From positions 1,178,001-1,242,000 of the forward strand of contig OZ017762.1 of NCBI GenBank assembly GCA_963969365.1: a stretch of DNA of 64,000 nucleotides, in the 5' to 3' direction. This document shows positions 1 to 64,000 of the stretch, in pieces. Within the stretch, counting starts at the first letter, position 1. Every line of letters starts with the position of its first letter. Under the pieces are notes generated by a model. The model was not told the DNA's origin, searched no databases, and was given only the letters and a program-made list of their open reading frames with translations. This DNA is from Asterochloris sp. CNOR1. Taxonomy: Eukaryota; Chlorophyta; Trebouxiophyceae; Trebouxiales; Trebouxiaceae. The translations under genes and the position numbers were made by a program.

Positions 1-1876
1 AGCAGTGTTTAGGGCACATCACGTCAAGCTGGTCACTTTAATTTAAACGTAGTGCTGGTCGCAAGCATGAGGCAATCTTCCGCAGCATCTCCTGTGGGTC
101 CATAAAGCCCCCTGTGGGGGCAACCAGCACTGACCGTGCACAACATACCTTGGGTTGGAAGGCAGCTTTGCTGTCCCAGTTTGACAGCAGGCCCTGACAA
201 TGCGCAAGCCATCTCAAGACCCAATCAACATCAGCTGTGATGCTCCCAAGGATGGGGCAACATGCAGGGGCATGGTGAATGCTTTCCATTGCCTGGTCTG
301 TAGCAGGCCTGCCTTTGCTCAGGGAGGGACTGGATGTGCATGCCACCGCTGGTTTCCCCCATGTCATGAGGTGTGCTTCCGGCCAATATTGCTTGCATTC
401 GTGTGGAGCAGTGCGCCCTTGAGGGCGTATTGCAACTGTGGGGTGCTGGGCTTCACAGCGAGGCCCTGCACTGTGTGTATGCGTTACAACCAGTGGCGGC
501 CTGTGACGCTGGTGGCTCCTGATGTGCATAGAGGCTACACCTTTGAAGCAGCCCTTGTTCTGGGTCAAATGCTGCACCATTGGGAGGGCCATTGTGCAAA
601 GGACTAGCTGGGTCTTTGAGGATCCCCAAATTAACCTCAAGGAGGTCTCACTGACATGCCTGGGTGTCTGAGCTGTCTGGCCCATCTGTGCGCCCATCTG
701 GGCGGTGAAGCTGGGCTCAAAGACTGTTCAACTGCTTCAACATGTTGAGTGCTGCCTGCAATGGGAATACCCTGTGACGACCATCTACAGCCCGTTCAGA
801 GCCTTGCACTCAGGACCGATGGCCCTGTATAGATAGTATTGTTCATTGCTATGCCCTCCTTGGGAAAGGTTTTCTTGGGGCATATCCCAATCTGCCTGAG
901 CTGCATTTTGTCCAGTGGTGCGCTGCACCAGTTTGAAAGCAGCTGTTGAGTCTCTGCAACACAAAAGTGGCAGACACCAGAATTTAAGTATGTGGACAAA
1001 AATGTTGATCTGTTGATACAAAAGCAGGCCTGATGTGTGAGGCCATCCCTGTGATTGTTTCCAGCAGCCATCTGCGGCGCCCTCTGGGCGGCGGACATGG
1101 TACTGGGGACAACACAGGGATGCTAAAGTGTGTCGGGTCTTGTCTTTGTCTTGCCAAACCATGTCGGGTCTTGTCCTTGTCTTGCCAAACCATAAGTGTG
1201 GTCTGATCTGACCTTGCCCATGTGACGGCCGGCTAAATTGTCTTTGATAGCGAGGTTCCATGCCCTCCAGTGCCTTCAAAGTGTTCACAAGAAGCTGGGC
1301 AGGTGACTCAGGCAGAACAAATATGCCAGTCAGCTCCAGCTGGTGTCTGTCCTCGGACACATACTGGGCTTCTATGCATCGTTGGTGTCTCATGCCAATG
1401 GGTGCCTTAGTACTTGCACATGGTGTGAGCTATTGCATGAGATCTCACTTTGGTGTGAGCAGCATCTCAGCGAGCACATGGCTACGCTTGTGGCGGCATG
1501 TTCAAGGAGGCAAGATCGATTTTATGCCATCACGTCTGGTACGAAGCTGCACTTGCCACCCATCATTAAATATCTTGCAAGGTTACTGGCTGCAAATTGA
1601 GCTTCTGTCTCAAGGCAACTGCCAGCTACACACGAGGAAGTGACTGTGCTAGTCAAGGGTGTGGCCATGTTTGATGAGATACCTCACTGCAGCTGCCAGC
1701 CTCTCTTGTATTGAAAGGCGCAGTCCAGTCATGGACTTGAACCAGCATTACAGCCTGATACTCTCTGGCTTGACAGCCATACACTCTCTCTGGCTTGACA
1801 GCCAAAGTCCACCAGAGCATGGGATGAAACACAAGCAGGTGCCTACATCTAAGCAGATCGCTGCTGCCTGTTGCAG
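1..1876. other. No identified gene; two minus-strand open frames
   Basis: I recognise no family here. Two minus-strand frames stay open: 697 down to 38 (219 codons) and 1393 down to 785 (202 codons). The first 50-60 residues of the second look protein-like, around EDRHQLELTGIFVLPES, so these may be exons of an unidentified gene or an old element. The plus strand should carry the first two thirds of the SelO gene that begins at 1877, but I find none of its conserved blocks. The stretch is therefore either an unusually long intron, inserted DNA, or flank of a truncated copy. Confidence 0.3.
1131..1192. repeat. 31-bp direct tandem repeat, two copies
   Basis: Copies at 1131-1161 and 1162-1192 begin TGTCGGGTCTTGTC and end GCCAAACCA, with one mismatch between them. 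The low divergence means a recent duplication. It lies inside one of the unidentified minus-strand open frames and adds 62 bp without breaking that frame. Confidence 0.9.
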
Positions 1877-3396: not shown

Positions 3397-6300
3397 TCAG
3401 TGTATGACTGAGCTGCTGCTGCACCCATCTGCTGCAATGGTCAGCACAGCCCCTGGCACCTGGCACAGCGGCTTCCAGGGACCTGAGGCAGGATCTGGTG
3501 ATGCAAAGAGCTTTCCACTGTTGGTGCCCAGCACAGCGCCCTGCTCTGCAAAGTACGGCACTGGGGTGTGTGCCCCTAGGTCAACCTGCTGCCTGACGTT
3601 GTCTGACAGGTTCTGGAAGGTCTTGCCGCCGTCTGTGCTGTGGTAAATGTGGCAGCCAATGCCTGCACAGGCAAGTGAGCTCCTCAGCAGTGTGCAGCTG
3701 ACTCGTTGCCTCGCAAGTCTGCTGCAGCTGCTGTCACGAGCACACATGGCCACGCGCAGTCAGACAAGCTTATCTTGATGGCTAGAGCTCTGATCAGTGA
3801 TGCAGGCGAAGCAAGTCAAGCTGCACATAAGGAAATCAGCAGCCACGCTCAAGCAGACCAGGGGCTCAGCACAAGCTGTGTGATGCAGCGCAAAAATCCC
3901 ACAGGTGCAGGCCGCTGCCCTCCCTGCACGCTGCAGCCTGGCTGGCAGCACACCATACCTCTCAACCAAGGTCTCACCTTGGGACCAAGCCCTGCTGTCA
4001 CCAGCAGCTCCTCCTCTCTCTGCAAGCACAACCCCAGCCAGCCCTGCAACATGGCTGCCTCTCCCCCTGCAGCCGGCCCTGCAGCCCGGCCAATGGCCCC
4101 ACAGCAAGGCCCCCACCTAACCTCTGCTCCCCACCTGGGGGCCTGTCCCCTGCCGTCACCAGGAGCTCCCCCTGCCTCTTTGGGTTGAGTGCCAGCCCTA
4201 TGACATAGCCCAGCCCCCGGCCGGTCGTCTTGCTCTGCCCCTCCCCCGCGCCGCCGTCAAAGATCCGCTGCCAGGTGCGCCCCTGGTCCTCTGTCATGAA
4301 GAGACCTCCTCGGATGTCTGAGGTGCTGCCGCAAGTCACGTACCACCTGCAGGGGCCAGGATGAAGCCCAGATGGCTCTGCACAGTCTGGAAGCATTGCA
4401 GCTGCCCACCATGCGCAGTTATATCCAGGTGTGGCCCTGGTCCTTTGTCAGGAAGCGGCCCCACAAACGTATCAAGGTGGTGCTGCAAGCCAGTTACCAC
4501 CTGCAGAAGGGCAGCAGAGTAGTCAGGGGGGGGACACACAGAGAGGCCGGGGGCCCTGAATCCCACAAGTGCTCCAGACTCTGCAGCTGGCAGCCCAGAT
4601 GTGAGCTTTGGCACCATCAGCAGCTCACAGGTGGCAGCACTTGCGCCGGCCCTGCATTCAGCAAGGATCCCTCGCCCGAGCTCAAGGCTGACTTGTCCAA
4701 AGCGCTCGCTAAATGAGGGCAGAGTGAGAAGCTCGCAGCAGTCCACTTACAGGACAGGCAGGTTCAGGCTGCTTGCGGGCTTTGAGTAAGTTCCTTGGCC
4801 TATTTTGGGGTGGAAGTAGAGGTTACGTGGCTAAACAAGGCTTTACACGGTCCACATGATGCACAGCACTTCATGCAGGCCTGCATGCTAGAGAGCTTCC
4901 CCCTGCAGCAGGCACCTCGAGGGATTGAACGAGTCTGGCTTGAGTTGGGGTGGATCATATCTCACACTTAGGTGTCACTTTGAAAGCATTAAAAAGCGGA
5001 CAGGTGGTCTCTGGTGCACATCATAGCCAAAGTCACCTTGAGGGGTTGAAAGGGTCTGGCCTAGCCTGGTGCACGTCGGGGCAGAGCTTGGTGGGGGAGC
5101 CCTCCTCTCCATGCCGCACCTCCCAAAGCTGCCCTGAGGCGCCATTGTCCACCAGCAGGCCCCCAACCTGCAGGGGCATGTCTTCCATATCACACGCGAT
5201 GCTTTCTGCAGACCTCACTGCCCGTCACACATTGGGATGGCAAACGTGCCCTGTTTGAGCTTGGGTGGGGAAGAGAGAAGACATTCCACTTGCAGGTGAT
5301 GCGTCCTGTAGGACTGTGCAGCTGACAACCTGGGGGGTGGGAGACAAGCTCTAACATGCAAAAGCCTCCCACATGCCTTTAGCCCTGTGGTGAGGAGGCA
5401 GACACACTGCAGGTGCAGCAGCTGACCATGTCAACCTGAGGTCAACGCACACCAGCAGGTCCCCATCTTGTGAGCCTGCTGTTGTGCACCCCTGCTGGCC
5501 ATGCAGGGATGTGGTCCATCACGCACTCTGTCACAGCCATGTTGCAGGCCTTGAGCTGAGCCCACCTCAATGCCAGCCAGCACCAGTCCCTCTGGGTCGC
5601 CCACGCCATCTCCTTTGCTCTGGGTGTCAGGGCAAGTGGCTATACTCAGCACGTGCGGCATGTTGGGTTTGGCTGGGAAGGACCTGCAGCAGCAACCCCC
5701 GACCCTGACTGCAACGCCAATCCTGTGGGATGGTCCTTGCTTGGACAGAGCACATGACAGGCAGGGTTGATTGAGACACGCTCCAATTGGTTCAGCAGCA
5801 TTCACGTCTGACGTGTGAGACAGCACTGGCATCTGCGGCAGCAGTGACTCAGGGCGGTGATCATCACACAGCTTGCCCTCTTTTGCGTCAAAGATGCCGG
5901 CTGGACCACCGCATGCACTGGGCCTGCACACCCAAGTGCCCTGAAGCTGCCTGCTGCGCTGGTTAGCAGTCAGGGTGCAGATGCACAGACCTCACCAGGT
6001 CCTGCGGCCGGGGATGGCGGCGAAGCTGCCAGTGTCCCTCCAGGTTTTGCCCTCATCCTCACTCAGCAGCACATCTGCATGAGTGTGGCAGGCTCTCTAG
6101 CTAATCAGGTGTTCTGTGGCAAAGGGGTCCTGTGGACTTGGTGGGGGCACTGCCCGGAGGCTGGTGCAAGACGTGCTGGGCGCGTTGTGTGCAGGTGTTG
6201 CATTGAGCAGCCTGGATGCCAGCGAGTCTTGGCAAATGGAATGCACCAGTACATGCCTCTGTTGAGAGGGACAGCCGCTCAGACACATAGTCGGCAGTCT

Positions 6301-7109
6301 GATCCAGGGCAAAGCAGCGACAGTGCCTCGTGTCGAGATGTGGCCAGCTGCTGGGACATGCTGTGGCCCCGAGCAATGCGGCCAACTTGCCTGCTGGTTC
6401 CACGCCGCCATACAGGGTGCGGGCACCTGGCTCGCTGCTTTTGCGCCCAAAGGCACAGCTCTTGGCATTGCCGCTCCACAACTTGGTGGCCCAGTGGCCA
6501 CTGTCATCAGTGCCCAGCATCCACAGGCCAGGGTCCTGCTCCTGCCCACCAGCCCAGTCCATCATGGTGTGCACCTGCATGCAGACTGCTGAGGGAAACT
6601 TACACATCGCTCTGTCGTCAGTAGCCAGCATCCACCAGCCGGCGCACTGCTGCAGGCGATCAGCCCGACTCCATGCTATTGACACAGCACAGCCATGAAA
6701 AATTTTGAGCTGCCAATCAATGTACAGCAGTGTTGAGGCTGCCCCTGGCTGCAGCCCCAGATCAGCAAGCAGTCCACCTGCAGATCCACACAAGATTCTG
6801 AGCTGCAAGAAGGTCAAATGGGGCTGAGTCTGTGCCCGTCCCAGTCCCCAACCTGTCGCATTGTGCACCACAAAAGGTGCCTGGCTGGGTGTAGTCTTTC
6901 AGGCTGAGCAAATGTGCTGTTGGCACAGCAGACATGTCAACTGTGCAGCGTAATAGCAGGCGCACCTCTGCAAGCTCTGGGACTGCTGCCAGCACAGCAC
7001 TGCCTTGGATTGCAATCTGCGACACTGTCATCCCTTCCAGGCCCAAGCATCTGCTGGCTCCCTGCCCATCAATATTATACACTCCCTGTGTGGTACTGAC
7101 CAACAGCAT
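3397..7109 (-). CDS. Asp-box (BNR) beta-propeller protein
   Basis: Seven exons in consistent phase: 7109-6966, 6574-6391, 6074-5996, 5683-5566, 5167-5037, 4346-4135, 3662-3397, giving 377 aa. Three Asp-boxes are visible: SEDEGKTW (exon 3), TEDQGRTW (exon 6) and STDGGKTF (exon 7). Segments such as LYGGVEPADVLLS and PDVHQARPDPFNPSRWYVT match the WD40/YVTN/BNR-like, sialidase-fold propellers that are often annotated as glycosyl hydrolase or photosystem-assembly-like proteins. No signal peptide is obvious. The exact function is unknown, and I do not claim sialidase activity. Exon 2 uses a GC donor (CAG|GCAAGT at 6390). Its first 20 codons are the least certain part. Introns contain decayed copies of exons 2, 5 and 6. 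It starts 332 bp from the divergent gene at 7442. Confidence 0.78.
4347..4510 (-). repeat. Decayed copy of propeller exon 6 inside its own intron
   Basis: On the minus strand, about 155 bp before the exon 6 acceptor, a second GCAGGTGGTA is followed by sequence that tracks exon 6 through GACAAAGGACCAGGG...CACCTGG (real exon: GACAGAGGACCAGGGG...CACCTGG). The copy is frameshifted and cannot encode the Asp-box. It is an example of the window-wide exon-edge duplication. Confidence 0.8.
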
Positions 7110-7441
7110 GCTGCAGGCCAGTCTGTGAGAAACTTGTGCTGGACTTTCGTGCAGCAAGAAGGAGAAGTCAAAACATAAGCAGCTTAGCTGAGGAACTACA
7201 TACCATGAGCTGTGATTGCCAAAGACATCAGGTAGCAAGGATGTGCCAGAGTTGACCATCACATCGCCACCTAACACAGCCGAAATGCTTCGCCCATGTG
7301 GTCCCCTCTCTAGCAGATGGAACTGCCACTGGACAATGCCTCAGGACCAGAGACAGGGTGGCAGACCGTTTCACAGTGAGTTCTCCAGCTGCAGACTTTC
7401 TGTAGTCATGAAATTTTGTCTTGAGCTCTGATGTCCAAGCG
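7110..7441. promoter_or_regulatory. Divergent promoter region, propeller gene / YkgJ-type gene
   Basis: 332 bp separate the two start codons, read outward on opposite strands. I see no TATA-like or other named element. Some plus-strand codons are open just before 7442 (in-frame stop at 7409), so the YkgJ-type gene could have a further upstream exon with a targeting peptide. Confidence 0.5.
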
Positions 7442-8819: not shown

Positions 8820-11800
8820 TCACTTCAACATGGATATCTTGTTTCTGAGGTCTGACATGCGCTGGCTCTCAGGGATACGTAAGAGCGTGAAAGGGGTAGT
8901 GGCAATGCCCGGGGTGGCAGCCAAAGGCATCCTCAGGCTGCTGCCAGGCCTGGTGGGGCTGTCACAGCGTGATCCTACATCACAGCAAGCCAAGCAATGA
9001 ACGCAGGCCACATGGCTTAGGGACTGATTGGGCAGGGCGTCACTCGCTCTGCATTGTCAAGTGGCCCACAGCTGCTCAGGGACAACACAGCTCAGGACCA
9101 GATCCCCAAGTCTTCATGCTAGCTGCTGTCAATGAGCTCACCCCTGCTCAGCCCCTGCAGACGGCTCTTGAGCTGCGGCAGCGAGGTGGTAGGCGTGGAG
9201 GATACCGGGCCCCTCAGTCCCACGCTGCACTGCTCAGCCCGGGCAGGCGCTGGAGATGGTCCCACACGTGCAAGTGCCTGCTCCAGCTTCAGCTGCACCA
9301 CTGCATTCTCTGTAGAGGCAGTCAAGACTCATTTGGCTGCACAGGCAGAACGTCCTCTGTGCCTGCACCTGGCCAGCACTGCTGTGCTTCAGCTCCAGCT
9401 GCACCACTGCAGTCTCTGCAGACACTTGCAATGCTTATGTGGCTGTCCGAAGGCAGAGCTTCACTGTGCACTGCAGAGCAGGCTGCTGTGTGGCTGAGTT
9501 GTTGCGGCTGCAGCCGCTGAGCAGCCTGCTCTGGAAACCTGGTCCCCAGCAGCCTGGGGCACACCTTTGTCCTGCTGGGTGGCGGCAAAGCGCGACAGCC
9601 CCTTCCCACTGGGCATGCTCTGCAGGTGGAGCCTGCCAGCACCCGCCAGCTGCGTCCTGCAAGTCACCTCTGCACTGCGCTGCAGTGGCGACAGCACGGA
9701 CCTGCACACCACAGCAGGCAGCTCCATGGCCTGGTCACCTTATCAATGCAGCACAGTAAGCTGCAGCCTGCCAGAAGGTGCAGTGTGCTGCAGAGGCATC
9801 AGCGCAGGGCAGCAGGGCTGATGATGTGTGGATGTTTCAAACTGCCAGCCTGTCAGAGCATCTGTGGCCTGCAATCAACATGTTTGCCTGGTGAAGTGGA
9901 CTCAGCACAGTTCTGCAGAGCACAGCACTCACCAATGGCAACTTATAGATGTGCTGACAGCCTGGTCTCATACCTGTCACAATGTGTTGAGAGCATCATG
10001 CTGGCAGCTGAGTCCTGTTCCTGCCCCAGCATGAGCTTACCGTGGCCAAGGTCGCACTGGCATGTCACGCTGCAAGCTGCTAAGAGAAGCCTACCCTGCT
10101 GGAAGCTGCTAAGAGAGTGCCTGCCACACAGGCAGTCTGATCCCCAGCCATGTTGGCCCCTCACATGGCAGCCTGTCACTCAGAGGTCACTGCAAGCATT
10201 TATGATTCATGGATGCATGTCACGAGTTGTAGCCACTTGCGGTGCAGGGCAGAGGCTGTGGCCTGCCACCTGAAGACCCTTGCATGCATCCTGAAGCTGT
10301 GACTGACCTGGTCCTGCCACGTGCCAATCCCATGTCGGGCATGTGCGCAGCCAGCTCCCCCTTTGCAGACAGCCCCTGCCTGTCCCCGGCCGCCGCAGAG
10401 CGCTTGATGCTGCCACCAGCTGCTGCAGCGCTGCCGGCACCACGCTCCATCAAGTCCCCTGGCTGGCTGCTGCTTGCACGCTGCTGGCCAGCAACAGCAG
10501 CAGGTGTCCCCAGGTCTGCCTGGGCTGCCTCTGAGCCTGTGCCTAAGCTCAGCACCTGGGGCTCACATGCTACCAGGGGCTGCTGGCAGGCCAGCCAGGC
10601 TGTGTCTGGGGACTGGGTGCTGGCAGGCTGGGTCGCCCTGAAGGGCGTCAGCCAGTCTGCCCTGCAGGGCAGCACCAAGCCTGAGCACAGGTGTTGCTGG
10701 AGGTAGCTAGTGAAGCCTGCGCGACTTGGCAGGGCTGCGACTTGGCTCCGCGCGTCAGCCAGTCAGCCCTGTGGCAACATGAAGGCAGAGCGCAGCAATT
10801 CATGGGGACCAACTTGGGTACCCTGTTTGAGGTTCTCTTCATAGTCGCTCTGAGTTGTGCAGCTTTGGCAGTGGGCCCAGTTCGGCAGCCAGCTGACATG
10901 CCGCAGAAGAATGTTCTGATGGAGCTAGCCACCTGCTTGCAGCTGGCTCAGCCGGCAACTACGTCAGCTCTCCTGCATGTGCGCCCGCTTCGGTCCACTG
11001 CAAGCCTCTTCAAGACGCAGCATGACTGTCAGCAGCAAGCCCACAGTGGCTGCATCTGCCGGACTCTGTTTGCACCAGCGTTGCAGGCAGCCCGCGTGCT
11101 TTCAGCATCCCAAGCCTGCGCGCTTACCCTGGCCCGCTGCAGGCGGCATCCAAATTCATGACAGGCGAGTCCATGTGCTCCGGCTGGGGAACAGTGTCAG
11201 CTGCTGCGACTCGTGTCTCTGGCTGCCCCACCTCCGCTCCTGGCTGTGCCCAAGCCGCCACACTCCTCTTGCCTGCTGCATGACTCCCCGCCTCTGCCCC
11301 CGCCTCAGCTGGTGACCCTGCTGCACTGGCTGCTGCCATGCGGTCTGTGACACCATTCGGCAGCAGAGTGCCACCACCCAGGCAGTCCGTGGGCTGCAGC
11401 TCACTGGCAGTCTGGCCGCTCCTGTGGCAGCCACCGCTCCTGCTGTCCAGTTGCCGCCTGCCAGCGTCGGGCTGGATGCCACCCGGGCTGCTGGGCAGCT
11501 GCTGCTGGCCTGGTGGGCTCTTCCTAAAGCTGTCACTGCACTCCTCCTCCCGGCTGCCTAAATTACAGCTTGGCTGCTGGCTGATTGCGGTGCTGGGGCT
11601 GGTAGCGGGCCAGCAGGCGTTGCCGTGGCTGTGAGCAATGATGGCTGCTCGCTGCATGGCCCGTGTGTGGGCCTGCTTGGCAGGTGTCCCGCCAACACTG
11701 CCTGCATCGTGACACCAGGTGCTTGGGTCAGTTCGGATTCAGATGAGAGCACGAGGACCGAGCTCGTGGTGCTGTGTGTTAGTTGCAGGCTTGCATTGTG

Positions 11801-40103: not shown

Positions 40104-40118
40104 GCTACCCCACTTTCA

Positions 40119-48300: not shown

Positions 48301-49474
48301 TACGCAATGGAGCTCCGCTGCAGCCCACAACTGGCGTAGGTTGCCCTAAAAGCAGTGGCTGCGCTGCACGCACTGTCCATCATGCAGTCGCCACAGGCAG
48401 ACGAGGACCAGCTGATCAGGTAAGATGATGTGAAGGCTGCAGCTCTCAAGATGCTGCCTGCCAGCGCACCCATCTCACTGCATGCTGAACAGGGGCCAGC
48501 AGATCAAAGCTAGCAGGGCGGCTCCTCATGTGTCTGCTTCCTGTGAACAGGCTCGTGCAGGAGTGAGTCCGGCACCTGGAGGGCTGAGCCATTTGCAAGC
48601 TGCGCAGCACCAGTTCATGCTCACGTCTGTGCTGTGTGGGAGCAGGCACCTGCATGAAGTGAGCCTGGCCTGCAATGCTCCCATCAAGCAGCCCACTGTG
48701 CATCCTGTGGTGGCCCCAGGCAGGTCTCACGTCTCTGTTTTTTGGGAGCAGGCTCCTGCACCTCGCCCGCTCCCTGCATGGCAGCCTCTGCCTGCAGGGA
48801 CTCCTGCAGGAGGTCCCGCGTCAGCTGAATCACCTGCAGGGAACAGGGCAGACCTGGAGCACAGGTTTGGCACATAAGGCAACCTTGCAAAATCTGAAAC
48901 GTGATGTTGTGGCTGCAGTACGACAGTTGCAGTGTTCTGCATTGGCTCTGGTGGGCACAGCTCGGCAGAAGCAGCTGGCAGCAGGTGGTAACAGCACCGA
49001 GGGCCGTCGCCCTGGAGCATGCTTGCAGAGCACAATCTGTGTGGCAGGCAGCGCGGCAGAGCCTCTGCTGATGAAAGTCTTTCAAGCCCAGTATCAGCCC
49101 TCGCCCTTGCATACTGCCTGTGGGGCCGGCCTGCCTTGCCTACACATGCTACAAACAGTCGCCTGGTATGCTCTTGCCCTTGCTGTATGAAATGAGCTTG
49201 CAGCAATCATCGCACACCTCCACTAGACTTGTCTGCAGGTCCCTGTACTCCTCATTGTCGGCATCCATTGCCAGAAGCTCATCCACCTGCATATGTAGCA
49301 GGAGCAGTGTTACAGCATGGCTCCAAGTTTGCCCTGCCTGGTCCAGTTGTTGAGCGTAAGACCACCAGTGCTGAGGAGCTGGCATGCACAGATGGGCTAG
49401 GCAACTGAGGGCACCTGGCGCAATTGCTCCTCATAGTCCTGTAAGTTTTGTTGTAGCTCGGCTGCATCCCCCAT
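45372..49474 (-). CDS. SMNDC1: Survival-of-motor-neuron-related splicing factor SPF30
   Basis: SPF30 is a Tudor-domain factor needed for tri-snRNP joining during spliceosome assembly. Exons: 49474-49415, 49286-49218, 48833-48731, 48079-47970, 47127-46936, 46620-46501, 46033-45869, 45626-45561, 45455-45372; 322 aa, all phases consistent. The N-terminal helix pair (LQQNLQDYEEQLRQVDELLA, IQLTRDLLQESLQ) precedes a Pro-rich linker. The Tudor domain follows: WAIGARCEALYAGDGQWYSA, GNFLVSFDEYGIEEE. Next come IYRGVQAPRRKAV, a Lys-rich helix (KETDDEKTKAKKKKLQKSH, QQSWQNFKKGKG), GSIFSVPDNPEAKVG and GVTGSGNPMTEF. It shares a 215-bp promoter with ARPC2. Three decayed acceptor copies precede the Tudor exon. 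Confidence 0.93.
47128..47592 (-). repeat. Three decayed copies of the SPF30 Tudor-exon start
   Basis: The exon starts at 47127 (VAEQIRAAQQKAALS). Copies start at 47212 (AAKQIPAAQQKAALS), 47355 (VARQTLLPSRSPLG, shifted) and 47577 (VAKQSCTVHQKAASC). All keep a TGCAG acceptor. Spacing is 85, 143 and 222 bp. The copy at 47212 is in frame for at least 15 codons and could act as an alternative acceptor. Confidence 0.9.
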
Positions 49475-52301: not shown

Positions 52302-55300
52302 TCACTGCTCCTCACCTAGCAGGCTGCTATCCTGGGATGGCCTGCGGCGACTGCTGCGCCCCTGCAGCCTGGTCGCAATCCTGTCACAGTCACTCCTGAG
52401 GTCGCTGGTGGTCAGGCGCTGGGCATCCAGTGCAGCCTTGTACAGGTCCAGCTGCTCATTCTGATGCTGAATGATGTTGAGTAGCTCTTGGCCCTGCAAG
52501 CCTCAGACAGCACCTTGTCAGCACCTTGTCAGCACCCGCTCCTCCCAAATGCTGGACAACTCTTGCAGCTGCAAGTCACTGGCCCCATTTGCATACAAGG
52601 GTCGCTGGAAGCCTCTCTCAAGTCGTTGATGCAGTACAGCCATTGCGAGCGTCAAACCCCAGACAGGCTTAGCCAGTCTGCCCAGGACACCCACCTGGGG
52701 CTGCTGTGCGTCCACACGGAACAGCTGACGCGAGCCCCAAGACAACAGATCTCTCCATGGCAGCTTGGACGGGGATCCTTGCAGGGGGCTGATTGGCTGG
52801 CTGGTGCCAAGGGACCTGGATGGAAAGGGGTGTGCCTGACAGCGCTGGAGCTGGTGACATGGGTCCATGCCTGGACTGCCAGCTAGGAGCCTCAGCACCT
52901 CAGGCGCATATGCAGTTGTGAAGCAGCGCCTGACCTGGTGGGCTGGAGTGATGCAGTGGGCTCAACACTGGGGTCCCCAAGCCCCCCTCCCCCCTCCATC
53001 GTCATCCTGCGGCTGCCAGCTGGCGACAGGAATGGTGTGCTGCAGAAGATGTCAAACTCCCAAATTGGTGCCAGATCTTGTCGTCAGTGTTGGGGGAAGG
53101 GGCCAAAGGCAGGTGGACATGCAAGGATGAACATGCACTTTGCTGATCTTGACAAAAACTTGTGAGCGATTGGCGCAGTGCTGGAGGCAGGAGAGACAGC
53201 CGTGTACATGCAGCACTGCATGGGGCACAAAATCTGTGAGTGCCTTCTGTAAACGGACATGCAGACTCCCAAGCAAACTGCAGCGGGGAGTGCCAGGTGC
53301 TCAGTCAATCTGCAGCTCCGGAACGTCTGCAATGTTTTACAGGTTGGGCAAGATGGTCCCCAGCTGCCCAAAGATGCCTGTGGCGCTCCCAAATGCACGA
53401 GGCAGGCCTGCAGCTTGCTGAGCTTCCCATGGGGCTGGCCCAGGTGAACTCAGCTGCCCTCAAGGGCACAATTGTGAGTTCCTAGACTACCTGCCGGGAC
53501 TGATGCTGCCCAGTGTCGCTGCTACAGATGGGGCCTGCACATCTGCAGGGGCGGTCAGGTGCCCTGCATGGCTGTGCGCTGCCAGCGTGGCTGCTGTCAT
53601 TGCTGCAGTGGCATCTGACCCATTTTCACTGCCACCTGCAGCGTCGTCCCCTGCCTCGTCCCCACTCTTGCCGGCCTGAGCATGTGAGTACGGCTGGCCA
53701 GCCTCCCAGGTGCCACCAGCGGCACCCTGCTGCAGGCGTCGCTCACTGTCATGATTCTGTGCATGTGATGGCCGCCCAGGCACCCACATGCCACCATTGG
53801 TGGGGTGCTGCTGCTGCCCCTCGCCCGCAGCAGCCTGCGCAGCGGGGAAGTGGCCAGCAAGGCCGCTTGAGCTCGCAGCCTGGGCTTGCATGGCTGCCAA
53901 GGCCATGTCAGCTTGTCCCCGCAGCGCCTGCTCCTGCCGCAGCTCAGCCTGCAGCCTCTCGAGGGTCCGCATGAAGACAGCTGTCTCCACCATCCTCACT
54001 GAGCCTGTTTGTGCAGCAGACCCCAGGTGGCCCTGTAGGGCACTAGGCAGCACTTCAGCCTCACAGCCTAGGCATGTGCACAATGCAGGCACCGTGGTCA
54101 CATCAGACCATGGCAAGCAGATGGCAAGCCCGTTGAGATCTCAGAGGATGCCGACCTGCTCTGCACTCTCTGCATCTGCTGCCTGCCCTTCCGCAGCGGT
54201 GACCCACAGCTCTGACTGGCCCTGCTCGAGCGCTCCCAGCCTGCCCCTTAAGTCAAGGGACGGCTCTGCAGACAGCTGCTCTGCGCTGGCGGCCCTTGCC
54301 ATCTCCTCATCGTCAACCGCCCACTGCAGCAGCAAGAGTCATCTTCTCAGTGCGTTCTTTTTGCTCAAGCAGTTCTAGGGGGCATGCCGTCAGGACCCCT
54401 GCAGTGCTACACTGAAAAATCAAACACTGCCAACACCTGTGGCAGCTGTCAGGCATGCAGCTCAGAGGTGACCTGGTTGAGGAAGCCTCACCATTGCATG
54501 GGAGCACAGGCATAAAGATGAAGACAAACTAGAGCTCAAGGGCCTGGCAGGCTGCTGTGTAGGCTGCCTCTTGAGACGCACTTGCAAGCTGCAGAGCACC
54601 ATCTTGCCTTGCAGCTGGGTGTGCATCTGATTGTGGGACCGTGTCAGCTTCACTTCTGCAGCATCCATCTGGGCAGTGCCAAGCAGCCACAGACTGACAG
54701 CCATGTTGTGAGCACAGCCCGCAACATGGCTTCCAGAAAGCCTGCCATTGTTGCAACTGACCTGCAGCTCGGCTATCAGCGCCTGCGCTGAGGACAATTG
54801 GGAATTCAATGTGCATCGCTCCACCCTCATGACCTGCGCCTGAGTCTGCTCCTCATGGGGTGCTGCAGCTGCAGGGTCAGCTACACTCTGGAGGAAGTGC
54901 ACTCGGGGCACGCCGCTGCCAGCAGGTAGAAGCCCCTCGGCTGGCAGGGATGTCATGGTCTGGATCCTAGCAGCAGTGGCCTCAGCTGCAGCCAGGTGCT
55001 CCTGCAGGCAGTGGCCCTGGCGTCAGGCACAGATGTCAGGCTCAGCGAGTCAAACTCATTTGGACAGCGCGAACATCTTTGGAGCAGTGCACACGCGCCT
55101 CAGCAGCAGTCAAGTTCCAGACAGACGCGTCTTGCACAGTGCTGCCACATGTTTTTGCAGGCAGCTGTGGCCTCAGTTGCAGCCAGGTGCTCCTGAGCAT
55201 GCGAACTGAGAGGGCAGCTGCCGGTTCATGCTTGCTGACCAGACTTGATGTAGGCCACAAGTCCTGCAGTTGGCAGTCGTTGAGGAGGTTTCCAGGAGAC

Positions 55301-58300
55301 ATTGGCCCTCCTCTTTGTGGGCCAGAGCTGTGTCTGGAATGCATGCAGGGCTCTCAGCATGGAGGCCAAAAGGCTTGCCCAGTCAGAGTCGAATTGCTTC
55401 AAGAATGCTGCAGGGCGTGGGCTGTGTCGCGCAAACAGGTGTGCAAGGGGAACTCTGTAAGCTGCACCATCTGCAGGCTGCTGGCAGACGCATGCCTCTG
55501 CCCCAGCTGCTGCCTCTCGCACTGGCAACTCTGCTGCTGCTTTATGCTGCAGGCTTGGAAAGCCTGTCCTCTCTCCAAACCACACCCACCTGCAGGCTGC
55601 CGGCAGCTGCATGCTTCTGCCTCAGCTGCTGCCTCAGGCAGTGGCGACTGTGCTGTTGCCTTATGCTGCAGGCAGGCAGCCAGACAGACACATCCGTCAT
55701 TGTACACCACACCTACCTGCAGGCTGCTGGCGGAGGCATGCTTCTGCTCCAGTTGCTGCCTCAGGCGCTTGACCCTGCGCTCCGCGTGGGATAGGTCGCA
55801 GGACTTTTGCCGCAGCTCCCCAGCAGCGGCAGCTGCTGCGTTGCGGGCCTTCCTGCACTCCTCGCTCAGATGGTGCACCTGAGCCTGCAGCGCAGAGTGG
55901 GCTGCAGCTCCCCAGCACTTGCAGCCGCTGCAGTCCTGGCTCATATGTTCATCTTGGCCTGCGTGGCAGCCTTAGGCAGAAGTGGGCCGCGGCCCCCCAA
56001 GCACCGTTACCCGCTGCTCTCTCAGGGTGTTCCTACACCTGCTTGCTCAAGTGTTGCACTTGCGCCTGCATGGCAGGAGGGTGAATGAGGCACGCAGCAG
56101 CAGCCGGACCTGTACCTCACCGGGATCGATTGCAGCCACAACCCTGGCCTTCCTGCACTCCTCAGACCGGCAGGGAACCACAGCAATGTGCATCACCTTC
56201 CATGTGCGATGGTGATTGCGGTGACAGCTCACACATATTCCAGATGGTTGTGAAGACATTATAAGGTGGTGAGCACTCCTTGTCGGCTGCCAATGGCTAG
56301 TGGTATTGTCTGATGGCGGCGCTTGCGGTGGCGCCACAGACATAGTGTCCTGTCATCTCGAAGCATCTAAGGACCTCAATCACTGGCCAACGTCTTGCCA
56401 GTGCCCAGATTCATTTGTGATCCCTCGACTTCTTGCTGCAGCCTCTCCTGCGCCACTGCCGCAGCAGCAACACTCTACAATGGGCAGTGCAGCGAATTGA
56501 ACCCCCATTACATTGATTAAGCAATAAACTAAATCTCTGGCCAGCTTCTGCCCAAAAGCAAAGCTGACCTTTGCCCCCGTCACCTCCTGCAGCAGCCTTC
56601 CTTGCGCCACTGCAGCAGCGGCCTGGCTCTCGCTCAGGGTGCCCTCTGCCTCCTGCAGCCTCTGCAGCAGGTGTTGTGCCCGCCCCTCGGCCCGCTGACG
56701 GGCCTGCTCTGCGGCACTCAACTCCTGCTGGATGGCAGCCAGCTGGCTGGCTGCGGCCCCATCGTGCGATGCCTGCTCCTGCTGCTGCTGCTCCAGCTGA
56801 GCGGCAGCCTGGCTCAGCTGCTGCTCCAGGCAAGCAACTGCAGCATCGTGCTGCTGTTGCAGAGAGGCACTGGCCTCCTTGTGCTGCTGCTGCAGCTGCT
56901 GCAGCTGGGCATCAGCCTGCCTCTGCTGCTGTTGAGCCTGCTTCAGATCCCTCTCCCGCTCCTGCAGCAGGCTGTGATGCTGGGCTTGCTGCCCTGCAGC
57001 TTCCCTGGCAGAGGCCAGCTGCTGCTGGGACAGTGCCAGCTGTGCTCTGAGGCTTCCCAGCTCCCGCTGCAGAGCGGTGATGCGGGCCTCTGCTGTCCGG
57101 GTGGCTGCCTGTGCAGCGGCCACCTCTGCAATCAGGCCCTCTGCCTTTGCCTCTGCCTCCCACTTGGCTGCCTGGACAGCGACCAGCTCTGCAGACAAGT
57201 CGTCTTCCTGTGCTGCAGCATCCTTTCTGGCGTCCTGCATGCCAGGCAGCTTGCTCAGTTGGCTGGTGTTCCTAGACACCCTCACTCACTTTGTACAAGG
57301 AAGACAGCCTTGTTGATTGGGCATTGTGCAACACAAACCAGCACTTGTCAAGGCCGAGACAGCTGATAGCAAACAACCATAAGCCACTGTGCTGTTCAGC
57401 AACTGCGCAGCTGCGACTGCGGGAGGAAACGACAGATGAAAAGAAACCGCACTCAAAGGCGCCGCTCAACACATGAGCTGCAGTGATCAACGCAGGAGGG
57501 TACACAGTGGATGGCAAACAACGGGAAACCACCGCCTTGTGAGGACGTCCCCTACCTGTTGCTGCTGCAGGTCTGCAAGCTCTGCTTCCAGCGCCTGCAC
57601 CCTCTGGCTTGAGACCTCTCGCTGCTCCTGCGCAAAGCTCCCAGCCTCCTGCGCCGCAGCAAGCTGCTCCTGAAGGTCCAAGACTGTGGCCTCTGCAGAG
57701 GCTGCGGCGCCCTCAGCTGCTGCCACATGCCGCCTGACAGCGTCCAGCTGAGACTGGGCAGAGTTGCCAGTCTCCTGTGCAGCGCCAAGCTGTTTCTGCA
57801 GCTCCGCAGACCGTGTCTCTGCAGAGGCTCTCCCCTCCTGAAGTGCTGCATCCTGCTCCTCAAGCCTTGCCTGCCACTTGGCAGACAGGCCCTCAGCAGC
57901 CTGCACCTGCCCCTGCAGGCCTGATACCCGGGCCTCTGCCAAGGCAAGGGCCTCCCGCACTGTGCTCAGCTCCTCTCGGCTGGCTTGCACCAGCGCTGCA
58001 TGGTCAGCAGACAGGCAGGTGCGGGCTTGCAGCTGCTCCTCCAGGTCCGCAGCCCTGGCGTCTGCAGCAGTGGCGGCCCACTGCGCTGCTGCCGCGCGCT
58101 GCCTGGCCTCTTTCGTCTGTGCCTCAGCGGACATGCTTGTCTCCTGTGCAGATCTAAACTCCTCCTGCACATCATGCAGGCAGCCCTGCCTGGATGCACT
58201 ACACACTCACAGCAATAGCTGCACAAGCACAGTTTACCAGTGCTGACGCTTGGTGGTCAAGAGGCTTCCAAGTGCATTGCCCATGTCATCACATGGTAAA

Positions 58301-61300
58301 CACACACAGCACAGAGGTGTAGTGCTGACGCTGGCCATGATGGCAAACAGACTGCTGACTGCCTGGCACCAGGACAAGCTGCAAGGCAGCCTACCTGCAG
58401 GCTGGTGATGGTCATCTCTGCATCCAACAGCCTTTCATGCTGCCTGGCAGCTGTTGCCTGTGCCTGCTCAGCGGCCTCGCGCAGAGCAGCAAGTTCCACC
58501 TGCAGGGGCAGCCAGGAGGCAGATCTCAGGCACGGGCAGGGCATCAGGTCCAGCAGGTCACTCAAGGGATCAGGCTGCACCATATTTTGCAGAGAGGTGA
58601 GCTGGCAGACAGGGCTGCCAATGCGAAGCTGTGCCGGCGCTGGCTGGGCACATTCATATGAACACATGCAGGTACCAGCTGGAGGCAGGAATGCACGCAG
58701 GCCGCTACTGCAATTGTGCTGCTGTAGCACAGCAACAGCTCGGATGGTGCAGGAGGTCAATGCATACCTCTGCAGCTGCCTTAAGGGCTGGGTCTGGCGC
58801 AGCAGCCTGTGCCTTCTGCAACTGCTCCTCCAGGTCTCGAATCTGAGCGGCATCAGCCTCCTGCTGGCTCAGGCCGGCAGCCTGCAGCTCCTGCTGCAGC
58901 AGCTGTATCTGGGCGAGGTCCCCTGCATGCTGCTCCTCTAGCCTGATCTCCTGAGCGGACAGCTCTGCTGTGTGCTGCTCCTGCAGGCCCTGCTTCAGGG
59001 CAGCCAGCTCCATCAAGTGCTGCTCGCGCAGGCCCTGCTGCAGGGCAGCCAGCTCCACCGAATGTTGCTCCCGCAAACTCTGCTGGGCACAGGCATGCTC
59101 AGCACGACACACTGCCAGCTCTTGGCAAGCCTCTTCCAGCTGCCTAGCTTGCTGCTCCTGCCCCTTCTCTGCATCCCTCAGCTCTGCAGCCCGCTGGATC
59201 AGCAGCTGCTTGACAGAAGCCCGGTCTGTGGCATGCTGCTCCTGGAGAGATCGGCTTAGCGAGGCAACGTCAAGCCTGTGCTGCTCCTGCTGTAAGGCTG
59301 TGGCCTGCGCATGTTGCTGCTGCAGCTGCTCAAGCTGAGCAGCAGCTTGGCTGAGCTGCTGCTGAGCCTGCACCACATCCCTCCCCTGCCGCTGCAGCAG
59401 GCTCTGCTGGTGGTCAGCAGCACCGAATCCGTCCACCCAGCCGTCCTGAGCTCGCTGCTCTGCGTGTTGCAGCTCAGCAGCGTGCTGCTCCCTGAGGTCC
59501 CGCTGCTGCTGCTCCAGCTGGTGCACTGCAGAGTTGTGCTGCTCCTGCAACCGCTGCATCTCCTGTTGGGCTGTCGCCAGCTGCTTCCTCAACCCACTCA
59601 GCTCAGCAGCATGTTGGCTCTGCACCTGGCCAAGCTGTGCAGCATGGCCTTCCTGCAGCTCAGCCAGCTGCTGCTTTGCAGCCAGGTGCTCCCTGCTGAG
59701 GCTCTCATTCTGCTGCTGTGTTTGAGCAAGGCTGACTGCCTGCTCCGCCAGGTCTGCCTCCAGCCCATCCCTCACGCTGAGCAGCTCAGCAGCATGCCGC
59801 TCCTGCTGCGACTGCCTCTCGAGCTCTGCAGCCGCTGCCTCTGCAGGGTTGAGCAGCTGCCAGTGTCTTTCAGAGCCAGCAGCAGCTCCGGGCTGCCAGG
59901 GGTGCATGGAAAAACCTGGGGGGGGTTTCAGCATGACCTGCTGCACCCACTGCATGGCCCCTGTGTGCTCCCGCTGCTCTGCAGCCAGCCCATCTTGCAC
60001 CTGTAGCAGGCGCCTGGAGGTTGTCAAAACAGACACTGTCATTGTCTGTGTTGGGCTCTGGATGCCCCACGTGATGAATCCGCAGACTCGCTCTGCACAG
60101 TGCTCATCAGCTACTCAGCACACAGCAATGCCTCGGCAAGACAGCTGGGCTACAGGCAAACGAAATCATGCCGGACTGCTAGCCTCCCTGCTACCCGGCA
60201 GGTACAGTGTGCAGCACTTTCAAGGCTGGCCATCAGGCATGGCAAGACATGTGCAGCAGTCGCCCAACAGACATGTCCTTGCCTGGCGCAGCTCCTGCTG
60301 CAGAGCGTGCAGGACGGCAGCATGCTCCTGGCGTGCTGCCTTGTCAAGACGCTGCATGGATACAGCAGAGTTTGTGAGACGAACTGTTGCTCAGCAAGGG
60401 ATGCACATGATCGGCACTGCTGCTCAAAGCAAGAGCAACAAGCCTGAGATACACAGGCAGTCTGAGATGTGCACAGGTTGCGAGCCGCACAGGCCTTCGA
60501 CTTTAGAACCGTGAGCATCCCCGGTCACAGCCAATGCACTGAGCAGAATGAGATCTGTGCTCACAACCTTGGAGATTGCAAAAGCAGCATGAGTGCTGAC
60601 TGGGTTGCAGTCAACAATGTAACTTCCTTTCTTAGTGGCGGCAGCACCATGCAATTTAATTAAAGCAACTGCTGCCTCTGATAGCAGCAGTAGCCACAAA
60701 TTCCAATGGGCACACCATCAGTGAGGGTGGTGCCGCCCTGTGCTGCTCCTGCTGCAGGGCCAGCACCGACTGCGCCCCCTGCAGCATCTCTCCTAAGCTG
60801 CGCAGCGCTTCACAGTGCCGGGCCTGCAGCGCCGCCAGAGCCTGCTGCAGGGCAGCCTTTGCTGGAGGAGCCACCTGCAGCGGCACAAGCATGCTGACTG
60901 TTGGGTGTAGCTATCACAGGAATGCATGCAGTGCTATGCCAAGCCTGCATGGCCGCCAGCTATTAGCACTTGTGCTGCAGATCCTGCCGGCAGGGCAGCA
61001 CCGCTCCAGGCGGCCACCTGCAGCAGCAGCAGCAGGTGCATACAATCAGGCTCCAGCAGGCACCCTGGTCTCTGCAAGCAGGCACAATGCTCCACGCTGC
61101 ACAGCCTGCTTCCACAGGAAGCCCTGACTAGACTGCGCCATCAGGTGACAGGGATCAATTTGCACAGCAGTTTGCAGCCGAAGTTCCACCTTTGATAACA
61201 TTCATGGGACCTCTGCTATCCCACCTCATATCATACAGCCCATGTGCAACAGCCTCATTCCTCACTCTGCGTAGCTCAAGTCACGCACACCCACATTTGT

Positions 61301-64000
61301 TCAGCACTCAGGACCCCCCTGCCACCCGGCCCACCTCATCTGGCTGCCCGGCAGCTGCCACAGGCGCCTGTCTGAGCTCCGCAGCCTCGGCACTCAGCTT
61401 GGCGGCCCTGTCCTCTGCTGCAGCCAGCAGCTGCACCTGCTGTTGCAGACGGGCTCCTGCCTCACTGCGCTGCTGCTCTGCAATTGACAGCAGGGCATCA
61501 TGTGCTTGACCCCTGCAGGTGGGCAGCCACTGCAGTGAGGGAAGCTCCTTGCACCAATGGAAGACTGCAACTGGCTGCCCTGTAGCCTCTCATGCAGCTC
61601 TGCTGCTCTACCAAGCAGCCTGGTGTCCTGCCCATGGCCACTGCAGCCTGCGCCGCTGTGCTGCTTGTGCCGCAGCCAGCAAATATCAAGTGTCTGGTCC
61701 ATGCCAGCAAACACAGATGCACTGGACTTGTTACCGTCTGTGCCTGATGCTCTGTGAGCTCAGCCAAATGGGCAGCTGCTGCAGTCTGAGAGCCTGAGTT
61801 GACGTTCAGCCGGTGGCAGCAGGCCATGCTGAGATCCTGACTGCTACCAGGGCCCGAGGGCCACTTCTGTGTAGCTTAAGCTTCACTGATTTCCCACTCG
61901 CAAGCAGCTGAGCGCAGGCTCTCTCAACGGCTGCACACTGCTAAAACCCGGCGTCAAACCCTTCTTCACCCGCCTCTATTGGTGTCATGCACATGCAGCT
62001 GCCCGCCACACTATGATGCGACTTGAGCCAGGGCCTCCCTCCAGTCTGTCAAGGCAATTCTGCTCTGCACCAGCATGGACCATACCTTGCATCGACCTCT
62101 GCCAGCGCCTCTTGCAGCTGCACCCGCAGCTGGTCGGCCGCGCTGGCACCTGCTGCCTGCATGTGCTCCGCGCGCCTCAGCTGTGCCTCCAGCCTGCCTC
62201 TGTCTACAAAGGACTCTTCCAGCTGCTGTGCCAGGCTGTGCAGCTGCTCCTGCAGCAAGGTGATGTCAAGCTTGATCTAGATCACATTGTGGTGTGAGGC
62301 TCCCTGACAGGTTACCTCAACCCACGCTCATCTCATTGGTCTCAAGACTCTTGTGTATTGCGTAGTGAGCAAGGTGCAAAGCCATCTTTACACATTGTTG
62401 AGCAGGTTGCCCTCTCCTGTGACACTCACTGCCCACAGCGTCACGCATTTGGCTGAGCATGCATAGACGAGCTGACATTGTAGACAGAGGGACCATAATG
62501 TGCCCTACCGCCAGGCCAGGGTTGCATCAAAGTGAGTCTAATCTCATTGGGAAGGCTTGGACAAGGCTGCTGCGACCTGCTCGTCACCGATACCAGCAGG
62601 CCTGGAGCCGCACCGTCAGGCTGGGCTTGAAGGTTGAAGGGCCTGTGAACTGTCTGCCATCAGGAGGGGGCTACCCCAGGTCTGCTCAGACAACTTGCTA
62701 CAGGCAATCCCTTGAGCCATGTGCAGCATCACTGCCCTGCCACCTGGCAGGTCTGGTTCTGCCCCAGAGCCTCTGGCTGCTGTGTCACCCTCTCCAATGC
62801 AGCTCCGCCTCGCAGGGCGGGACAGAACACCCTGCCACGCACTTCCAGGGACCTGGCCTTCAGCAGTCTGGGGCTGCAGCCTGGACCTAGCACCAGCGAA
62901 CTATCCAAACCACCTCAATCCTGCCCAGGTAGGAAGCTGGACTGCCCCTAGAAGCCCTTGCTATGCATGCATGAGCCTAGAGGTGGCCGATGAGCAGATC
63001 ACAGACAGACCTGACGTGTGATGCCAAGCCTGGCTGGAAGCCCAGCTGCCCTGTCTGGGCCAGGGACGCCATGAGTGGGCCTGACAGTGGGGTAGAGATG
63101 ACCCAAAGGGTCCGGGATGGGGCACACCCGATTGCATGTAACCCTGCTGTACCCGCTCACTCAGCCCACCCAGTCCTACCACCTCTTCCTGTCTTACTTG
63201 ACCTCAGCCACCCGCATGTTGCCTGGTGCTCCACTTCCACCGACCCAGCCACTGCACCAACCTGCATCATTCCCTGCTGAGCTGCAGCCCCCTCATACTC
63301 CCGCACCCACGCCTCCAGCTGCTGTGCACGCTGCTGCAACCGCTGGTGGGCTGCTCCCTGATCTGACAGCCGCTCATGGGCTTGAAGCAGCTCCCGCTGC
63401 AGCAGAGCAATGGTTTGCTGGGCCAATAGCAACTTGTCGTCTTCTGGCTGCTGAGGACTATGGTCGGTAGCCATGACAATCACTGAGCCTGCAGGGCACA
63501 CCTGGCAGGTGTTGGTCAGAGGCAGAGGAGGACCCCCCCCTTGACAGCTGCTGTCATGGAGGCCAGAAGGCGTCCCGACTCCCCATTTGAGCGTTCCAGA
63601 GCCATGCACTGCTTGCGGGCCCGTTTCATGCATGCAATTGACTTGTCGAGTGGGCCGCCCACTGGCTGACACTGTTGTCCAGCCATTGCTGGCATTTCCA
63701 ACAATAGCTGGCTGGCACCACAGAAGAGCCATTCCTCTTGTCTGGCAGTGATGCACAGCTCACTGCACAGACGTTCACTGCGGACTAATGTGCACAACCC
63801 CACACACTTCAGAGACAGCCACCTGTGGGGATGACTGGGCCCCCATCGCTGGAGGAGTCGCTGTCAAACATTGCGTGGTGGCGCTCTCTCTGCCGGCGAG
63901 CCTCCGCCACCTGTGCAGCTGCAGCGCTGCCTGCAGCAGAGGCACCTGCAGGCAGAGACGTCAACCTGCGTGCTACCGGTCCTGCAGGTACAGCCCAGTC
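52302..64000 (-). CDS. Very large coiled-coil protein, 5' end outside the window
   Basis: Coding exons include, in minus order, about 63950-63833 (RQRERHHAMFDSDSSSDGG), 63474-63275, 62270-62090, 60880-60725, 60000-58768 (411 codons), parts of 58190-57556 and 57280-56600, about 54950-54760, 54330-54145, 54110-53490, 52568-52536 and a last exon 52493-52302 ending SSLLGEEQ. Almost all is Gln/Ala/Glu/Leu heptad coil, with a register of about 16 residues around LREQHLMELAALKQGLQEQH. It resembles golgin or centrosomal scaffolds only in composition, so I name no family. The C-terminal helix LNIIQHQNEQLDLYKAALDA is the least repetitive part and best for searching. Intervening exon limits are approximate. 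An alternative start at 63474 exists, but coding signal continues upstream. Confidence 0.65.
52509..52535 (-). repeat. 11-bp repeat creating tandem donor sites
   Basis: AGCACCTTGTC occurs twice in direct tandem (52509-52530) and is followed by a partial third AGCACC. On the minus strand this yields GTGCTG three times, 11 bp apart, at the donor of the penultimate exon (GAGCGG|GTGCTG). Alternative donor use would shift the frame. Confidence 0.75.
55471..55770 (-). repeat. Three-copy exon-edge array in the large coiled-coil gene
   Basis: Units with CTGCAGGCTGCYGGC followed by GCATGCYTCTGCYYCAG (plus strand) begin at 55471, 55590 and 55718, 119 and 128 bp apart. On the minus strand each reads as Glu/Ala-rich coil (EACLRQQPA-like) running into a donor. 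I cannot tell whether all three are exons or only one is. Confidence 0.8.

Follow-up and report, generated by a model that had tools for sequence, protein, structure and literature searches.

Decayed copies of exon edges in introns of Asterochloris sp. CNOR1, probable remains of old short tandem duplications

Roughly three-tenths of the modelled introns of the alga Asterochloris sp. CNOR1 contain a decayed copy of a neighbouring exon's edge, and these copies are probably what can still be read of old short tandem duplications, most of which did no harm. Copies of this kind were found in 67 of 241 introns (28%), on the acceptor side in 42 and on the donor side in 31. An earlier note on this DNA had attributed such copies to most introns and to the acceptor edge; both descriptions were overstated, because fewer than a third of the introns carry a detectable copy and donor edges contribute alongside acceptor edges. 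If the proposed origin is true, it shows in a simple way where a compact genome can obtain intron sequence, and it also sets up a natural experiment on how splice sites are chosen, with tens of junctions at which a once-identical second acceptor or donor lies beside the real one; the keeping of ghost acceptors and the loss of ghost donors would then tell which kind of decoy is harmful. Exon-like sequence within introns can also mislead gene finders.

Sequences and gene models

The window is a stretch of 64,000 nucleotides (GCA_963969365.1, contig OZ017762.1, positions 1,178,001–1,242,000 of the forward strand), and it was analysed together with 20 further 10-kb stretches of the same genome, giving a total of 264 kb. 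The 241 introns come from self-trained gene models, for which the repeats were not used in training. Direct repeats were screened for copies 40–600 bp apart at a score of at least 85, with Markov-3 sequence and self-comparison at a displaced distance as controls. Four repeat-family loci (L002, L007, L013 and L014; a fragment of the family also lies in L015) were excluded from the other loci when these were compared with the window, where 26 of 65 introns carry a copy, against 41 of 161 elsewhere.

Abundance and position of the local repeats

The local repeats are real and far above chance: 208 direct-repeat matches were obtained in the 264 kb, whereas Markov sequence gave one and self-comparison at a displaced distance gave 10. 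They are also strongly oriented, with 100 direct repeats and one inverted repeat at a spacing of 50–500 bp. Repeat clusters are about half as dense between genes (0.134/kb) as in introns (0.259/kb). All 12 sites given as examples in the earlier note are local direct repeats at a score of at least 85, the weakest, at 22607–22740, barely reaching this value. The independent gene models place an exon edge at the junction named there in seven of the 12 (4346, 14046, 17601, 25280, 26726, 44443/44444 and 47127); the models hold no gene at 22607–22740 or 29163–29420. The array at 55471–55770, previously read as acceptor-side, is donor-side in the gene models. The sites in the window are as follows.

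4271–4506, minus strand: acceptor-side pair 4271–4352 / 4425–4506, 77%; exon 4135–4346
9279–9475, minus strand: acceptor-side pair 9279–9367 / 9385–9475, 76%; exon 9119–9309
13985–14334, minus strand: acceptor-side array, period 107 then about 66 bp, the window's clearest head-to-tail array; exon 13852–14046
16632–16683, minus strand: perfect tandem duplication (26 bp x 2) over the acceptor, a young case; exon 16454–16644
17525–17876, minus strand: acceptor-side copies, period 153, with an extra copy at 17823–17876; exon 17376–17601
24637–24922, minus strand: pair 24637–24724 / 24833–24922, 69%; exon edge at 24683 in the earlier note, at 24766 in the model
25204–25888, minus strand: acceptor-side copies at 25366, 25608 and 25865; exon 25090–25280
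26687–26907, minus strand: acceptor-side pair 26687–26730 / 26864–26907, 80%; exon 26611–26726
32702–32921, plus strand: donor-side pair 32702–32758 / 32865–32921, 82%; exon 32578–32756
44259–44537, plus strand: acceptor-side pair 44259–44352 / 44439–44537, 71%; exon 44444–44593
47063–47593, minus strand: acceptor-side array, copies at about 47162, 47263–47291 and 47539; exon 46936–47127
48620–48760, minus strand: donor-side pair 48620–48654 / 48726–48760, 86%; exon 48731–48833
50582–50719, plus strand: acceptor-side pair 50582–50622 / 50679–50719, 85%; exon 50709–50898
54970–55195, minus strand: acceptor-side pair 54970–55004 / 55161–55195, 94% over 35 bp, flanks unrelated; exon 54762–55001
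55467–55766, minus strand: donor-side array, period 119; exon 55717–55884

Exon edges were also compared with their own introns and, for each, with 60 controls from the introns of other genes, matched and scored identically, with scores near the linear regime (220 introns; 21 of the 241 were too short). For the acceptor edge, the own intron outscored all controls in 52 of 220 introns, where about 3.6 would be expected, and its reverse complement did so in six. For the donor edge the counts were 29/220 and, for the reverse complement, 3/220, and with exon-only queries the own intron reached 35/217 and 30/216, against 9 and 5. The earlier note had named similarity to the own intron no higher than to other introns as evidence against its proposal; the own-intron excess is the opposite of this.

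In 131 internal exons, copies in the upstream intron derive from the 5' part of the exon and copies in the downstream intron from the 3' part, so that the two exon-decile profiles are mirror images. Pairs with one copy in the intron upstream and a partner across the acceptor downstream numbered 43, versus 7.7 by random placement (an expectation that spans all loci, and whose intergenic value is inflated by the repeat-poor repeat-family loci). The reverse arrangement was absent: no acceptor copy had another copy after it, whether in the exon or in the intron, versus 3.9 and 2.4 expected by random placement. Twelve pairs have a donor copy followed by an intron copy. The presumed functional copy is the one adjoining the exon, and the displaced copy carries the exon edge together with its splice site. 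Exon edges only are involved; whole-exon copying is confined to single exceptions, in L016 (an exon of 31 bp) and in L012 (a unit of 403 bp). Where both members of a pair lie in exons, their offset is a multiple of three in 17 of 17 cases.

Decay and age of the copies

The copies decay as non-coding sequence. Offsets of the best pairs modulo 3 (15/14/13 and 10/13/8) show no frame preference, and all three codon positions carry mismatches (0.21/0.20/0.25 and 0.18/0.16/0.27), which argues against the coding use that had been considered for them. Identities of at least 85% were seen in 25 of 196 pairs with units of at least 40 bp, and only three of these 25 span most of the unit. Clear head-to-tail arrays are present at 13985–14259 and in L008 at 6918–7157 (121 bp, spacing 119, 88%). 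In most pairs, what lies between the copies does not resemble what lies beyond the ghost (local z>2 in 4/27 and 5/26), whereas about 10/27 would be expected at t 0.28, the best single pulse; such missing similarity fits a tandem origin only if the events are old.

Simulations that include the detection bias do fit old tandem duplications, with units of about 110 bp and about 0.25–0.45 substitutions per neutral site, a fit that depends on the values assumed for unit length, indel rate and the constraint on exons. Acceptor-side identities and the quartiles of length relative to spacing agree with these simulations, and the weak residual similarity over the remainder of the unit fits t 0.35–0.43. 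A uniform age spectrum is rejected (logL -61.0, versus -17.9 for the fitted one), and there are too few young units above 40 bp for a steady process. Because uniform ages are rejected, the earlier view that duplication is continuing is weakly supported for units above 40 bp. On a single-pulse estimate, a past wave of duplication may have affected between one third and one half of splice junctions.

The two kinds of ghost splice site differ in their retention. Ghost acceptor cores are fully intact in 20 of 39 cases, versus 31% simulated at t 0.28, and their overall retention is 160/194 (82%), versus 77% simulated at the same t, so no selection against ghost acceptors is seen in this set; 82% is the fairer measure, an alternative figure of 88–90% depending on alignments that reach into the intron. 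Ghost donor cores are intact in three of 25 cases. In these small numbers, ghost donors look to be lost faster than neutral and ghost acceptors do not.

Origin of the copies

Tandem duplication across intron–exon junctions as a source of intron sequence, the idea put forward in the earlier note, is supported by the direct orientation, the anchoring at junctions and the fit of the simulations. Counting against it are the scarcity of young units above 40 bp, exon overhangs that are shorter than simulated, and the lower density of clusters between genes. Short segments, mostly of about 50–200 bp, would be duplicated in tandem in this genome, presumably through break repair or replication slippage. 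A duplication within a coding exon would mostly be purged unless in frame, and one within an intron or between genes would have no effect on the protein. A duplication crossing a junction could also be silent, provided that the spliceosome stays with whichever site is nearer the exon, namely the acceptor lying downstream or the donor lying upstream. The displaced copy would then become part of the intron, bringing a ghost splice site and some exon sequence with it, and would decay, probably neutrally, while its partner in the exon was maintained by selection. Because the exon partner is held in this way, an exon-edge pair should stay readable for longer than an intron–intron pair, and exon edges would therefore be what is detected. 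More broadly, most intron sequence might consist of decayed copies of the alga's own genes, left by a past wave of tandem duplication, with ghost donors weeded out, ghost acceptors tolerated or kept, and introns growing by absorbing their own exon edges; we put this forward tentatively, as somewhat doubtful. The earlier statement that such copies dominate intron content corresponds to this model-based estimate, detectable repeats making up 9.8% of intron bases.

The most serious competitor, although unlikely, is short-patch templated insertion, in which break repair or template switching would place 30–80 bp of exon edge with unrelated filler in the neighbouring intron. The aligned parts are indeed short relative to their spacing, even at high identity, some ends are sharp (33 of 35 bases match, then nothing), and exon overhangs are shorter than in the tandem simulation (medians of 40 versus 55 bp for acceptors and 46 versus 59 bp for donors at t 0.3). 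The first head-to-tail tests also saw hardly any resemblance outside the copies (mean z 0.29 and 0.24; in a second test, local z>2 in 4/26 and 4/26), but the second of them took its ages from biased identities and overstated the case. Old tandem duplications look alike once the choice of best-preserved fragments is simulated, and the head-to-tail test with detection bias included no longer excludes them. Templated insertion would, moreover, need an extra assumption to account for junction anchoring, which tandem duplication yields by itself, and the copies are almost exclusively direct. An origin from cDNA was rejected, as ghost flanks resemble the exon across the intron no more than controls do (31.8 versus 30.5; 32.5 versus 31.2).

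Tandem duplication could also have been directed to exon edges, for example through splice-site motifs or transcription. With uniform ages, simulation leaves exon-edge pairs two to three times too common relative to intron-internal ones (0.40–0.46 expected per intron-internal case; for each intron-internal cluster, about 1.4 introns with acceptor-side and 1.0 with donor-side copies were observed), and intergenic density is low; this excess disappears once the old ages from the fit are combined with a single per-base rate, which predicts 26 intron-internal detections against 30 clusters (42 pairs) seen. Exon edges are thus not required as a special target, and we consider such targeting improbable. 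It is slightly less improbable, but still unlikely, that ghosts persist because they serve a purpose, for instance as decoy acceptors tuning splicing or feeding nonsense-mediated decay. The fully kept acceptor cores would suit this, and the scarcity of young copies could reflect an equilibrium under weak constraint, but donor cores are lost, neither offsets nor mismatches respect the reading frame, and CTGCAG in intron bodies is at Markov expectation (360 versus 377). That the introns themselves were born when an exon segment containing AGGT was duplicated in tandem, a mechanism known elsewhere (PMC3443670), is very improbable, since it needs a spacing equal to the intron length and, among 105 pairs, the nearest misses this by 82 bp. 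Introners, a known source of introns (PMC9860276), or other mobile elements have the least to recommend them and can practically be set aside: at E<=1e-4, loci matched each other or themselves 13 times; the repeat family (L002, L007, L013, L014 and the L015 fragment) accounts for 11 of these matches, and the remaining two are one inverted repeat internal to L007 and one coding repeat of the window. Fifty-five spacers gave three weak matches to other loci (E 0.005–0.01), and near-identical introns at many places were found neither in the 264 kb nor with the single spacer searched genome-wide, which matched itself alone.

Comparison with known systems

Tandem or mutually exclusive exon duplication involves a copied whole exon, a preserved frame and coding constraint, none of which applies to the alga outside the single exceptions in L016 and L012. 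No genome with this pattern was recognised in the open-licence literature, represented mostly by titles and the beginnings of abstracts, and an earlier description is possible. The Chlorella NC64A genome paper may discuss repeats in introns. The retrieved passages of the Coccomyxa genome paper make no mention of such repeats (PMC3446292).

Rogers 1989, Hellsten 2011 and Gao and Lynch 2009 are reportedly linked to intron gain by tandem duplication. In that process, as is proposed for the alga, gene segments and splice sites are duplicated and the mRNA is unchanged; it differs in that the spacing of the alga's 105 pairs never comes close to the intron length. Direct repeats near intron splice sites, as described in one study, likewise lie at intron–exon borders, but these are of 4–30 bp and were obtained by comparing both borders of one intron, whereas those of the alga are of tens of bp, inside the intron and on one side (PMC11782384). 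Staggered DNA breaks yield small tandem duplications in mouse and human cells, and these head-to-tail units of tens of bp make such breaks a plausible source in the alga (PMC8355091). Another close parallel is the potato RdRp gene, in which a tandem duplication across an intron–exon boundary made a new intron, confirmed by transcripts (PMC4974935). As in the alga, that duplication covers the intron end, acceptor and exon start, the splicing signals are inherited, and a further 83-bp duplication lies inside an intron; in the alga, unlike in potato, the extra copy seems to have been absorbed into an old intron, at tens of junctions and mostly long ago (PMC4974935). The mechanism is already known from single genes, and it is the scale that may be new.

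Gene models and local repeats

The genome of Asterochloris sp. CNOR1 comprises 56.38 Mb in 21 contigs (C1 to C18 range from 4.47 down to 1.99 Mb), and the window occupies C17:1178001-1242000. C21 carries an rbcL gene, for which the nearest PDB sequence is 8q04, followed by 1gk8 (Chlamydomonas), as suits a green alga. The sample analyzed here, consisting of the window and 20 stretches of 10 kb (264 kb in total), was used for the self-training of a generalized hidden Markov model, with long open frames as the starting set. The resulting models contain 55 genes, 296 exons and 241 introns (median length 393 bp), with the splice consensus CAG/GTGAG at donors and CTGCAG/G at acceptors. They are surely incomplete, some genes having been missed, including those at two examples from the earlier note. 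Nine of the 10 window proteins submitted (12 were predicted) match a Pfam family (E ≤ 0.001), eight of them above the curated cut-off (SelO, kinesin, LON, S25, L7Ae/L30e, TatA, SnoaL_2 and P34-Arc), and several matches extend over at least three exons.

The local repeats are real. Self-comparison in 10-kb pieces yielded 100 direct repeats versus one inverted repeat (at least 36 bits, 50–500 bp apart), and Markov-2 control sequence yielded none within these limits. Direct repeats become fewer at distances above 500 bp. At least one occurs in 15 of the 20 loci outside the window. A banded Smith-Waterman search (40–600 bp, score of at least 85) found 208 matches, versus one in Markov-3 sequence and 10 in a displaced-distance self-comparison; 196 pairs were left once overlaps had been removed.

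Placement relative to exons and introns

The earlier note described the introns as degenerate tandem arrays of the neighbouring exon edge. The observation is real but somewhat overstated, as copies of an adjoining edge on either side are present in 67 of the 241 introns (acceptor-side copies, of the following exon, in 42; donor-side copies, of the preceding exon, in 31; any pair, in 79). Exon edges resembled their own intron more than other introns at 52 of 220 acceptors and 29 of 220 donors, versus 6 and 3 for reverse complements.

Pairs with an upstream copy in the intron and a downstream copy across the acceptor exceed random placement (43 versus 7.7), as do exon-then-intron pairs (31 versus 13.8) and, slightly, donor-then-intron pairs (12 versus 8.0). 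No acceptor-then-exon pairs were seen (3.9 by random placement). Intron-intron pairs (42 versus 61.1) and intergenic pairs (22 versus 52.0) are below random placement; part of the intergenic deficit comes from an expectation raised by four repeat-family loci. Across 131 internal exons of 100–250 bp, upstream-intron copies cover 22, 19, 15, 6, 2, 2, 1, 0, 0 and 0% of successive deciles (5' to 3'), and downstream-intron copies 0, 0, 0, 0, 0, 1, 5, 10, 15 and 17%. At spacings of at least 200 bp, the acceptor-side copy reaches or spans the junction in 21 of 23 cases, and the donor-side copy approaches it to within 8 bp in 10 of 14.

The 17 exon-exon repeat pairs of the sample all have offsets divisible by three. 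Those of the window (56774-59858) lie inside a long coiled-coil-like gene (53487-64000) and are, therefore, probably coding repeats. The four repeat-family loci (L002, L007, L013 and L014, with a fragment in L015) share sequence at 88–100% identity, have long open frames (1150 codons in L002, 830 in L014) and are probably transposons; L007 also has a perfect inverted repeat of 1.2 kb. At another sampled locus, L012 (6198-7001), an exon and its flanks have been duplicated in tandem as a larger unit: a 403-bp direct repeat (81%, spacing 401) with both kinds of splice site within each copy.

Age and origin of the copies

Detected copies are mostly 70–85% identical, with an aligned part that is short relative to the spacing, so early tests seemed to exclude head-to-tail duplication. 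In simulations of tandem duplications across junctions, with a constrained exon copy and the detection step included, old duplications viewed through their best fragment resemble the observed copies. For the acceptor type (t, the age in substitutions per neutral site, 0.3; indel rate 0.15), quartiles of identity are 0.70/0.74/0.78 simulated versus 0.72/0.77/0.81 observed, and those of length/spacing 0.34/0.49/0.68 versus 0.33/0.50/0.72. The fit is poorer for the donor side (length/spacing 0.33/0.50/0.71 versus 0.21/0.39/0.55) and for exon overhangs, whose observed lengths fall short of the simulated ones. Residual similarity across the rest of the unit is consistent with t 0.35–0.43.

The fitted age curve, in which the oldest classes are poorly fixed, climbs with age (logL -17.9); a uniform distribution was rejected (-61.0), and the best single pulse, at t 0.28, lies between (-33.0). 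Single pulses at 0.28–0.33 imply 72–104 events per junction kind in 226 introns (a third to half), many of them no longer visible. These age and event estimates rest on assumptions about unit length, indel rate and exon constraint.

Exon edges need not be a target of duplication and are probably just the place where its fossils are preserved. At t 0.28, about half of simulated junction pairs are detected, versus 11% of intron-intron pairs, and the 26 intron-internal detections expected from the fitted ages at one rate per base are close to the 30 clusters (42 pairs) seen. Against edges as mere preservation sites, cluster density between genes is half that in introns (8 in 59.5 kb versus 30 in 116 kb). 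The copies are not new introns of the AGGT type, do not behave as coding sequence and are not derived from cDNA; no mobile family emerged from the 264-kb sample or, for one spacer, from the whole genome. The repeats are most economically read as a layer left by old tandem duplications and visible through selection on one copy.

Displaced splice sites and young duplications

Splice-site cores in the displaced intronic copies ("ghosts") were scored alike in real and simulated data. Ghost acceptors kept 160 of 194 core bases (77% in simulation at t 0.28) and 20 of 39 were fully kept (31%), versus 76 of 125 bases (75%) and 3 of 25 (31%) for ghost donors. Thus, in these small samples, the loss of ghost donors seems to outpace the neutral rate and that of ghost acceptors does not, which is a lead. 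This contrast would fit a situation in which the exon-proximal acceptor wins even while the decoy persists, whereas a second donor would be harmful. The CTGCAG hexamer is nearly fixed at real acceptors in introns of all loci, occurs inside introns at Markov expectation (360 versus 377) and is scarce nowhere except in the 25 bp immediately preceding the acceptor (0.72 per kb).

Young duplications are rare for units above 40 bp but not for small units: 7 of 13 small-unit repeats are at least 91% identical (units of 18–27 bp), including the perfect one at 16632-16683. Four small tandem duplications in the window (units of 26–31 bp, 93–100% matches) are much younger than the larger units:

16632-16683, perfect small tandem duplication, 26-bp unit, exactly across an acceptor
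50401-50454, small tandem duplication
20985-21039, small tandem duplication
1131-1193, small tandem duplication

The youngest sampled array with a unit above 40 bp is at locus L013 (545-748; 68-bp unit, 96% identity). The scarcity of young large units could reflect a past wave, assembly collapse of young repeats or a change in unit size.

The open-licence literature searched, mostly as titles and abstract openings, yielded no account of such duplications at this scale; the mechanism itself is known from single cases (PMC4974935).
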